Part shown: in pieces, positions 35,052 to 36,617 of the stretch
How the letters are laid out: every line of letters starts with the position of its first letter
Numbering within the stretch: the stretch's first letter is position 1
Assembly (NCBI GenBank): GCA_903851655.1
Contig: CAINOV010000300.1
Span: 1 to 36,617 of the forward strand
Reading direction: 5' to 3'
DNA from: an uncultured Caulobacterales bacterium
Lineage (GTDB): Bacteria > Pseudomonadota > Alphaproteobacteria > Caulobacterales > Caulobacteraceae
Length of the DNA stretch: 36,617 nucleotides
Made by a program: the position numbers and the translations under genes
Notes under the pieces: generated by a model
Seen by the model: only the letters and a program-made list of their open reading frames with translations
What the model was told of the DNA's origin: nothing
The model's database searches: none

Positions 35052-35591
35052 TCAGATATACCGGCGAAGGGACCGGGCCAGTTCGGAGCCATCGCTCCGG
35101 CGGGCCTTTTTCTGCTGCGGCTGATAGGCGACCCGGGCGTGCTCGACGCAGTAGGGGCCGTCGTCTCCCCCCGTGCGGCGACCGCAGAAGCTGAAGCCGT
35201 CCGTAGCGGGGTCGCCGATGGGCCACTTGCACATGTGGGCGCCCAGGGTCAGCACCGTCGCGGAGCCCGGCTCCTCGTGGCGATAGGCGGGCGCCGAGGG
35301 GGCGGGCGCAGCCATGACCGGCTGCGCCGGCGGCGTCGCGGCTTCCGCGCGCCGGGTCGGGAGCGGCGCCGGCATCACGGGACGGGCCGGCCGGGTGGCC
35401 TTGAACGCCGGGCGAGCGGGCTGCGACGGCGCCGCGCGGCCCGAGAGGCCGAGGCGGTGCACCTTGCCGATCACGGCGTTGCGGGTCACGCCGCCCAGCT
35501 GCTTGGCGATCTGGCTCGCGCTCAGACCGTCGAGCCAGAGCTTCTTGAGCGTCGCAACGCGATCTTCGGTCCAGCCGTTGACAGTCTCCAT
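35052..35591 (-). CDS. gcrA: Cell-cycle regulator GcrA
   Basis: A 179-residue GcrA. The N-terminal helix-turn-helix reads NGWTEDRVATLKKLWLDG, then SASQIAKQLGGVTRNAVIGK and VHRLGLSGRA. A Pro/Ala-rich linker covers about residues 50-115. The C-terminal domain has MCKWPIGDP, FCGRR and YCVEHARVAYQP, whose Cys/His residues are conserved. In Caulobacter GcrA binds domain 2 of sigma-70 and activates promoters methylated at GANTC by CcrM. The ATG at 35591 has AGGGGG seven bases upstream. The gene is divergent from the permease across a control region with CtrA-, CcrM- and DnaA-type elements. Confidence 0.96.
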   Translation of the reverse strand: METVNGWTEDRVATLKKLWLDGLSASQIAKQLGGVTRNAVIGKVHRLGLSGRAAPSQPARPAFKATRPARPVMPAPLPTRRAEAATPPAQPVMAAPAPSAPAYRHEEPGSATVLTLGAHMCKWPIGDPATDGFSFCGRRTGGDDGPYCVEHARVAYQPQQKKARRSDGSELARSLRRYI

Positions 35592-35682
35592 GCGCGCCCC
35601 CTGGTGACGTTCCGCCGGCATCTGGCGGAGCTATATGTTGTGTCCAGCCCCGACGAATTTCCGCGGCTGACACCAGATATCG

Positions 35683-35777
35683 TAAACAAACCCTTAAAGT
35701 CCACAATAGGCGCCTTGGCCTTCGTCCACAGGAACTAGATGTTGAATCGGAAATCCGCGGTCGAGATCCGTGGACAA
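35683..35777 (-). promoter_or_regulatory. gcrA control region: CtrA-like site, GAATC and DnaA-box-like cores
   Basis: TAAA-N7-TTAA at 35683-35697 is a seven-of-eight match, read on the minus strand, to the CtrA site TTAA-N7-TTAA. GAATC at 35744-35748 is a CcrM methylation site. TCCACA cores lie at 35700-35705 and 35725-35730, the latter within TCGTCCACA (two changes from TTATCCACA). CGTGGACAA at 35769-35777 is TTGTCCACG on the other strand. In Caulobacter, DnaA activates gcrA, CtrA represses it, and methylation affects its promoter. The region could also serve the divergent permease. Confidence 0.55.
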
Positions 35778-35814
35778 CCTTGCCAAGGCGGCTGTGAGGA
35801 CGCACATCGGAAGT

Positions 35815-36617
35815 ATGGCTGACCTGATCGCAACACCTCCCGCACCGACGACCCCGAACCCTGCGTCGCGCCCTCATCTCGAGGGGCGCGGCGCCGCCTC
35901 GCCGCCGGCGCCGCGGGTCTATCACGGGGTCAACTGGACCGGATTGCAGACCCTGTATCTCAAGGAGGTCCGACGGTTCTGGAAGGTGGGGCTGCAGACC
36001 ATCGCCGCGCCCGTGGTGACCACCCTGCTGTACATGATGGTGTTCGTGGTGGCCATGCGCAGCGCCAATCCGACGGTGGAGGGCGTGCCCTTCGCCCAGT
36101 TCGTGGCCCCCGGCCTGATCATGATGGCGATTCTGACCAACGCCTTCGCCAACTCCTCCTCCTCGCTAATCCAGGCGAAGATCATGGGCACGGCGCCGGA
36201 CTTCCTGACCCCGCCCCTGTCCCCGTTCGAACTGGCGGCGGCCTTTTCCCTGGGCGCGGCCACCCGCGGGATGGTGGTGGGGCTGGTGACCGCCCTGTCG
36301 GTCTGGCCCTTCGCCCATTCCACCCTCTTCAGCCTCGCCGCGGTTCTCTACTATTCGCTGGCGGCGTCCTTGATCATGGCCTTTGTCGGGGTGCTGACGG
36401 GTCTGTGGGCGGAGAAGTTCGACCATCTGGCGGCGGTCACCACCTTCATCGTGACGCCGCTGACCTTCCTGTCCGGGACCTTTTATACGATCCACCGCCT
36501 GCCGGCCTTCGCCCAGACCTTCGCGGCCTTCAACCCGTTCTTCTACCTGATCGACGGGTTCCGTTACGGCTTTGTCGGCCACGCGGACGGCTCCCTGGCC
36601 ATCGGCGTGGTCTATAC
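35815..36617 (+). CDS. ABC-2 type transporter permease (3' end outside window)
   Basis: The first 267 residues of an ABC-2 permease; it runs off the right edge with no stop. After a Pro/Ala-rich cytoplasmic N-terminus (to about residue 40) come GLQTLYLKEVRRFWKV and several membrane helices. The ABC-2 signature region is present: QFVAPGLIMMAILTNAFAN, then TFLSGTFYTIHRLP, and FNPFFYLIDGFRYGF. It resembles YadH-type permeases, which export drugs or polysaccharide-linked substrates with a separate ATPase. That ATPase is not in the window and may lie beyond the edge. The ATG at 35815 has only a weak ribosome site; a GTG at 35794 in frame is possible. Confidence 0.9.
   Translation, partial: MADLIATPPAPTTPNPASRPHLEGRGAASPPAPRVYHGVNWTGLQTLYLKEVRRFWKVGLQTIAAPVVTTLLYMMVFVVAMRSANPTVEGVPFAQFVAPGLIMMAILTNAFANSSSSLIQAKIMGTAPDFLTPPLSPFELAAAFSLGAATRGMVVGLVTALSVWPFAHSTLFSLAAVLYYSLAASLIMAFVGVLTGLWAEKFDHLAAVTTFIVTPLTFLSGTFYTIHRLPAFAQTFAAFNPFFYLIDGFRYGFVGHADGSLAIGVVY

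Follow-up and report, generated by a model that had tools for sequence, protein, structure and literature searches.

NrdR is an ATP- and dATP-sensing repressor of ribonucleotide reductase genes. According to the account of its operators in PMC12051234, it recognizes 16-bp palindromic boxes in pairs, with a whole number of helix turns from one center to the next. That account gives the core of the box as a regular expression, C.[AT].[A][AT].[AT].G, and its spacing rule works out at 30-33 or 40-43 bp from start to start. The gcrA promoter of Caulobacter crescentus is described in the relevant part of PMC3193534 as activated by DnaA with only one DnaA box. A comparative study from 2010 did not detect the DnaA box of gcrA in Caulobacter with the matrix that it used (PMC2877005). 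Inhibition of C. crescentus gcrA by CtrA has been suggested (PMC8959179). Our literature search found no report that links NrdR with gcrA; most subscription papers and the regulon databases were outside its scope, and an earlier prediction may exist. The accessible text of the NrdR part of a Proteobacteria-wide regulon study does not mention gcrA (PMC5343134).

We analyzed a stretch of 36,617 nucleotides from an uncultured Caulobacterales bacterium (the window). Judged from the sequence, the best-conserved feature upstream of gcrA is a palindromic, NrdR-like array, which was absent from the preliminary description of this DNA. The gcrA coding sequence (35052..35591, minus strand, with its ATG at 35591) encodes 179 amino acids and matches PF07750 at 189.2 bits; it is the only PF07750 match in the source genome. 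A gap of 223 bp separates it from a divergent ABC-2 type permease (35815..36617, plus strand; PF01061, 90.6 bits), which is cut by the end of the window and could instead start at the GTG at 35770. Wherever we found this permease (59 of 86 loci, with 1 duplicate), it is transcribed divergently from gcrA, so shared control of the two genes is physically possible. As a neighbor of gcrA, the divergent permease is strikingly stable, from Caulobacteraceae to Parvibaculum. In genomes G001, G002, and G004, nrdAB shares the strand of gcrA and lies some 4-7 kb upstream of it; in G003, a contig ends in a fragment of nrdB about 4 kb from gcrA. In the source assembly, nrdAB and gcrA are on different contigs, and nrdAB was not found in G005. 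The permease and an open reading frame with a weak match to Asp/Glu racemase lie between nrdAB and gcrA in G004.

We aligned the upstream regions from six genomes of the genus and compared them with 30 further Caulobacteraceae-like loci and 49 more distant alphaproteobacterial loci. The related loci are the best 80 of at least 582. They were grouped by GcrA identity and record title, with some members unclassified, into 36 Caulobacteraceae-like, 33 next-nearest, and 16 most distant loci. Three rows were excluded from the counts: L009 (on the same contig as L007), L001 (the same place as L002), and L008 (a weak paralogue match). To score boxes, we used a matrix trained on 23 nrdA promoters from the family, without any gcrA sequence. 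The training imposed a pair spacing of 30-33 bp, and 16 of the 23 promoters came out at 31. Another 10 of the 33 nrdA loci (L124-L133) were left out of training: these are continuous-barrel matches with no clear tandem boxes.

Upstream of gcrA, conserved islands sit in poorly conserved sequence. Apart from the DnaA, CtrA-like, and GANTC sites taken up below, these islands repeat a single palindromic box that fits a frame of 16 bases. All of the boxes are given on the minus strand. P1 (ATTCAACATCTAGTTC, 35732..35747) lies upstream of the DnaA box, matches the published regular expression, and scores 10.1 bits with the nrdA-only matrix. P0 (TTACGATATCTGGTGT, 35670..35685) scores 12.7 bits, and its distance is 62 bp to P1 and 42 bp to P3; it covers the presumed -10 (TACGAT, 35679-35684) and the likely start site. 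P3 (ACACAACATATAGCTC, 35628..35643) scores 13.2 bits and is presumably in the 5' untranslated region. P1 and P3 of the window fit the strict box CWASATVTWG, and P0 reads CGATATCTGG. P2 (35701..35716), whose register was taken from relatives, is a half-box at best: in the genus, the right half (TATTGTG) alone fits, and the score is 0.2 bits or less, as compared to up to 12.9 bits in other Caulobacteraceae-like loci. At P2, GGCGCCTATTGTG is invariant in all six genus loci, and P2 contains the presumed -35 (TTGTGG, 35701-35706). We assigned the presumed -35 and -10 by eye; a scan with strict sigma-70 criteria returned 0 promoters. With P1 at 0, the other two full boxes are at 62 bp (P0) and 104 bp (P3), all three on the same side of the helix, and the half-box P2 is at 31. 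P0-P3 is the top-scoring pair of the whole window (25.9 bits, versus 8.9 bits for the best pair outside this region).

Two other elements of this region are worth recording. A GCAAG is found within 75 bp upstream of P1 in 6/6 genus loci and in 22 of the 32 Caulobacteraceae-like loci whose register was resolved (see below), and it may belong to the permease promoter. The gcrA leader has a hairpin (GTTCCGCC...GGCGGAGC, 35609-35631) that lies after P3 and before the start codon. By eye, its stem persists in L003 and L004, where pairs have changed, but not in L005; an Rfam search of the leader, up to E = 1, found no known RNA element.

To place the boxes in the relatives, the register analysis imposed a P1-P3 distance of 102-106 bp and sought P0 at 59-65 bp. 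It left 4 of the 36 Caulobacteraceae-like loci (L017, L021, L022, and L023) and 17 of the 33 next-nearest loci unresolved. P0 is weak (5 bits or less) in 15 of the 32 resolved Caulobacteraceae-like loci, 8 of which are titled Brevundimonas. Because the register analysis is circular, we added a search for boxes of at least 7 bits with no spacing imposed. The six genus loci contain 18 such boxes, exactly three each, as compared to a mean of 1.0 in shuffled sequences; the shuffle controls, here and below, ignore kinship, and the compared loci are related by descent and were counted without phylogenetic correction. The distances between these boxes are 41-42, 62, and 103-104 bp in all six loci. 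The 36 Caulobacteraceae-like loci contain 95 boxes (6.7 shuffled), and 81 of the 83 distances between them are 30-31, 41-42, 61-63, 72-73, 102-105, or 114-115 bp, or about 3, 4, 6, 7, 10, and 11 helix turns. In the 33 next-nearest loci there are 93 boxes (10.8 shuffled), with four boxes in 11 of the loci, and in the 16 most distant loci there are 22 (2.8 shuffled). Boxes about 104 bp apart (102-106 bp) were found in 30 of the 36 Caulobacteraceae-like loci and in 16 of the 33 next-nearest loci. Among the 16 most distant loci, 6 have boxes of 7 bits at a distance of 31 bp. The best pair is at 31 bp in 14 of the 16, but this spacing coincides with the geometry of the -35 and -10 and is weak evidence.

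The published description of NrdR operators leads to a similar picture. P1, P0, and P3 match the core of the regular expression in 6/6 genus loci, and P2 fails to match in the register of the array. The P0-P3 distance is 41-42 bp in all six loci, which is within the NrdR spacing rule; a 31-bp pair with P2 was not found, by score, in the genus. The numbers of core matches within 250 bp upstream of gcrA, with the shuffled expectation in parentheses, are 24 (3.6) for the 6 genus loci, 92 (15.5) for the 30 other Caulobacteraceae-like loci, 92 (27.0) for the 33 next-nearest loci, and 25 (8.9) for the 16 most distant loci. Pairs of cores with the right spacing occur in 6/6, 16/30, and 17/33 loci of the first three groups, as compared to means of 0.0, 0.2, and 0.6 across 200 rounds of shuffling, with maxima of 1, 2, and 3. 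The most distant group has such a pair in just 1 of 16 loci (0.1 shuffled) and is therefore negative for pairs by the regular expression alone.

We also asked how the gcrA region ranks against other DNA. Genome G004, a congener, was sampled with 20 chosen stretches totaling 383 kb, or about a tenth of the genome; one stretch was picked for gcrA and nrdAB, and another (L158) was picked for nrdR. In this sample, the nrdA-only matrix ranks the gcrA promoter first, at 30.2 bits (P0-P3, at 42 bp). It is followed by nrdA at 30.0 bits (which was in the training set), a match in a coding sequence at 20.8 bits, and the pair upstream of nrdB at 19.8 bits. When each locus (3 to 5.5 kb) was divided into 230-bp windows, the gcrA window had the top score of its own locus in 36/36 Caulobacteraceae-like, 33/33 next-nearest, and 12/16 most distant loci; the 99th percentiles of the background were 9.2, 11.6, and 10.4 bits, respectively. 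An untrained matrix, built from the NrdR consensus, also places gcrA first, both in the window (29.7 bits) and in the G004 sample (33.4 bits). In the 3.85-Mb source genome, the strict box CWASATVTWG occurs at 11 places, 2 of which are at gcrA. This 10-mer is not rare in every congener: counting both strands, the source genome has 17 matches, versus 128 in G001. When pairs were scored at the 11 places, gcrA was highest (25.9 bits), followed by podJ (18.5 bits) and a place in L114 (15.3 bits).

As for the putative regulator, nrdR is present in all six genus genomes, above the curated cutoff, and in 47 of 49 other genomes (46 of them over the cutoff). Because nrdR is nearly universal, its co-occurrence with the boxes is uninformative. 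The same palindrome is found at nrdA in all five genus genomes in which nrdA was found (of six), with boxes 31 bp apart. The pair upstream of nrdB is weaker, with 16.8 bits in the source genome; in one locus (L152:11802; 19.8 bits), it adjoins a DnaA-like site, TCTGTGGACAA. A strong NrdR-like box is also found, singly, upstream of a gene that we take to be podJ from its N-terminus (L172-L175 and L177; G000:C315:2405 in the source genome). This box is near a DnaA-like TCCACA, and the layout resembles that of gcrA. In the five of six genus genomes where podJ was found, the box scores 17.6, 17.6, 16.9, 18.0, and 10.7 bits, and all but the last outscore the highest of 1435 background windows (12.4 bits). 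At a distance of 30 bp there is a second, weak box. Upstream of ftsZ and mipZ, no box exceeds 5.9 bits in any of the six genus genomes. These genes are activated by DnaA in C. crescentus, as described for that species in PMC3193534. We found no DnaA-like heptamer upstream of either gene in the genus genomes, so their control by DnaA is known only from C. crescentus.

The preliminary description had pointed to plausible sites for DnaA, CtrA, and methylation at GANTC upstream of gcrA, with three DnaA-like cores in a cluster. All of these sites were located in the 223-bp gap. When the window was cut into 7305 overlapping tiles of 95 bp, just 1 held three or more DnaA-like hexamers together with a GANTC and a CtrA-like site (at most one mismatch); of 76287 tiles from the G004 sample, 0 did, so the combination exceeds chance. 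Across the Caulobacteraceae-like relatives, the middle DnaA core and the CtrA-like site held up, the outer DnaA cores did not, and GANTC was patchy. The conserved DnaA box, TGTGGACGA, is on the gcrA strand (35722..35730, minus; core at 35725-35730) and has two mismatches to what we take to be the standard box, TTATCCACA. Its core (TGTGGA or the complement) is kept in 6/6 genus loci, in all 32 resolved Caulobacteraceae-like loci (of 36), and in 11 of the 16 resolved next-nearest loci (of 33). A single DnaA box, conserved in both sequence and position, is supported. This candidate site agrees with the one-box promoter of C. crescentus gcrA. The core at 35700..35705 (minus strand), on P2, is kept in 1/6 genus, 1/32 resolved Caulobacteraceae-like, and 0/16 resolved next-nearest loci, and the core at 35769..35774 (plus strand) is kept in 1/6 genus and 2/32 resolved Caulobacteraceae-like loci. 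Because these two cores are not conserved, we dropped the cluster of three boxes. In the next-nearest group, 7 of the 16 resolved loci have a DnaA-like hexamer upstream of P1.

The CtrA-like site (TTAA-N7-TTTAC; TTAAGGGTTTGTTTAC, 35682..35697, minus strand) lies between the presumed -35 and -10 and overlaps the latter. In the window, it has one mismatch, in its second half. The full site is present in 4/6 genus loci and in 23/32 resolved Caulobacteraceae-like loci, which favors a CtrA input in the Caulobacteraceae-like group, but it is absent from all 16 resolved next-nearest loci. The GANTC (GATTC, 35744..35748) overlaps the edge of P1 and is found in 5/6 genus, 19/32 resolved Caulobacteraceae-like, and 1/16 resolved next-nearest loci; such a patchy distribution does not favor methylation as an input to gcrA. 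An imperfect inverted repeat (CGCCTTGGC..GTCCAC / GTGGAC..GCCAAGGCG, at 35711-35729 / 35770-35790) has two DnaA-like cores in its arms. By eye, the genus alignment does not show it in the five congeners, and we set aside the idea that it is an operator or a hairpin.

Could the palindromes be something other than NrdR operators? If this were an ordinary Caulobacter-type promoter, with DnaA, CtrA, and methylation as its only inputs, then the palindromes would be the -35, the -10, the discriminator, and conserved spacers. The DnaA box (32/32) and the CtrA-like site (23/32) in the resolved Caulobacteraceae-like loci fit this account, as does the DnaA-activated, one-box promoter described for C. 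crescentus gcrA in PMC3193534, and P2 and P0 do overlap hexamers that resemble a -35 and a -10. But P1 and P3 are outside the promoter core, and they lie about 104 bp apart in 30/36 and 16/33 loci. Furthermore, a matrix derived from nrdA ranks the gcrA region first, and the upstream regions of ftsZ and mipZ lack the boxes. We consider the ordinary promoter unlikely.

Alternatively, the same palindrome could be read by another factor. One version is that another S-phase regulator reads it at gcrA, podJ, and the nrd genes alike. Such a regulator might account for podJ, where one strong box (four genomes at 16.9-18.0 bits and the fifth at 10.7 bits) neighbors a DnaA-like site, but the motif fits both the published NrdR expression and the helical spacing rule, and with nrdR in all six genus genomes, a second regulator is not needed; we view this version as quite improbable. 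Another candidate is NtrX, whose site is CAAN2-5TTG and which, as reported for Sinorhizobium meliloti in PMC9223101, binds the promoters of gcrA, ctrA, and dnaA. Although some P3 boxes read CAAGATGTTG, the NtrX site is found in 0/6 P1 and 0/6 P3 boxes of the genus and in just 4/32 P1 and 9/32 P3 boxes of the resolved Caulobacteraceae-like loci, and the same palindrome is also at nrdA. We dropped NtrX as the reader of the array, given the absence of its site from P1 and P3 in the genus, and regard it as very unlikely indeed. MucR and IHF were considered as well; the IHF site is WATCAANNNNTTR, and some P1 boxes resemble it by eye.

Overall, we observe conserved boxes with helical spacing at gcrA and, in the same genus, the motif again at nrdA (with a weaker pair at nrdB), along with nrdR itself. 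At least three inputs probably converge on the gcrA promoter, and the best-conserved elements of the region would be an NrdR operator array through which NrdR would repress gcrA; we hold this with reasonable confidence. The binding of NrdR, its repressive sign, and its timing at gcrA are what we infer. NrdR with dATP and ATP would bind a pair of boxes, chiefly P0-P3; where relatives have a full P2, it would also bind P1-P2. On P0-P3, NrdR would exclude RNA polymerase. Plentiful dATP would thus lead NrdR to lower the transcription of gcrA, as for nrdAB, and when replication forks drain dATP, gcrA and nrdAB would be derepressed together. DnaA would activate gcrA from the single conserved box, and CtrA over the -10 would repress it.

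These putative NrdR sites suggest that the cell-cycle clock may be coupled directly to nucleotide supply. The S-phase delay that excess dNTPs cause in C. crescentus is independent of CtrA and takes a route that the authors call undefined, and they suggest that the helicase DnaB, or else its loader, could be the target; deletion of nrdR causes hyper-spreading and is synergistic with deletion of fssC (all as given in the main account of PMC12186491). Because the route of the delay is undefined, it invites a model in which NrdR acts at gcrA. However, the phenotype of the nrdR deletion argues against a simple role for NrdR in the dNTP-induced G1 delay: losing the NrdR brake should relieve the delay, and yet the deletion strain hyper-spreads. 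It is therefore improbable that NrdR at gcrA alone causes the delay. A broader idea is that NrdR is a general alphaproteobacterial cell-cycle input that co-represses the dNTP-producing nrdAB, the S-phase master regulator gene gcrA, and the polarity gene podJ, as an ancient dNTP gate parallel to DnaA and CtrA, and that it explains part of the CtrA-independent effect of excess dNTPs. We offer this idea tentatively and are inclined to doubt it. If the NrdR operator on gcrA is real, then it puts a dATP sensor inside the core cell-cycle circuit, and models of the gcrA promoter would need NrdR as an added regulator. The proposed link would also make the question of nucleotide supply and the cell cycle testable by simple promoter mutations.

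How does the gcrA array compare to known systems? The C. crescentus gcrA promoter shares the one DnaA box; here, the CtrA-like site is over the presumed -10. For C. crescentus gcrA, no NrdR input was found in the literature we searched. In S. meliloti, NtrX is likewise a metabolism-linked regulator that lowers gcrA expression, as described in the NtrX results of PMC9223101, but its site, CAAN2-5TTG, is not found in the boxes of the present genus. The NrdR operators of nrdAB, nrdHEF, and nrdDG likewise have 16-bp palindromic boxes, paired with 30-33 or 40-43 bp between their starts. PMC12051234 also describes promoters that have three or four NrdR boxes, namely, those of nrdHEF in Streptococcus pneumoniae and nrdAB in Listeria monocytogenes. 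In contrast to the operators of reductase genes, the gcrA array combines three full boxes (at 0, 62, and 104) with a half-box (at 31); its boxes are interspersed with a DnaA box and a CtrA-like site; and the putative target is a cell-cycle transcription factor.
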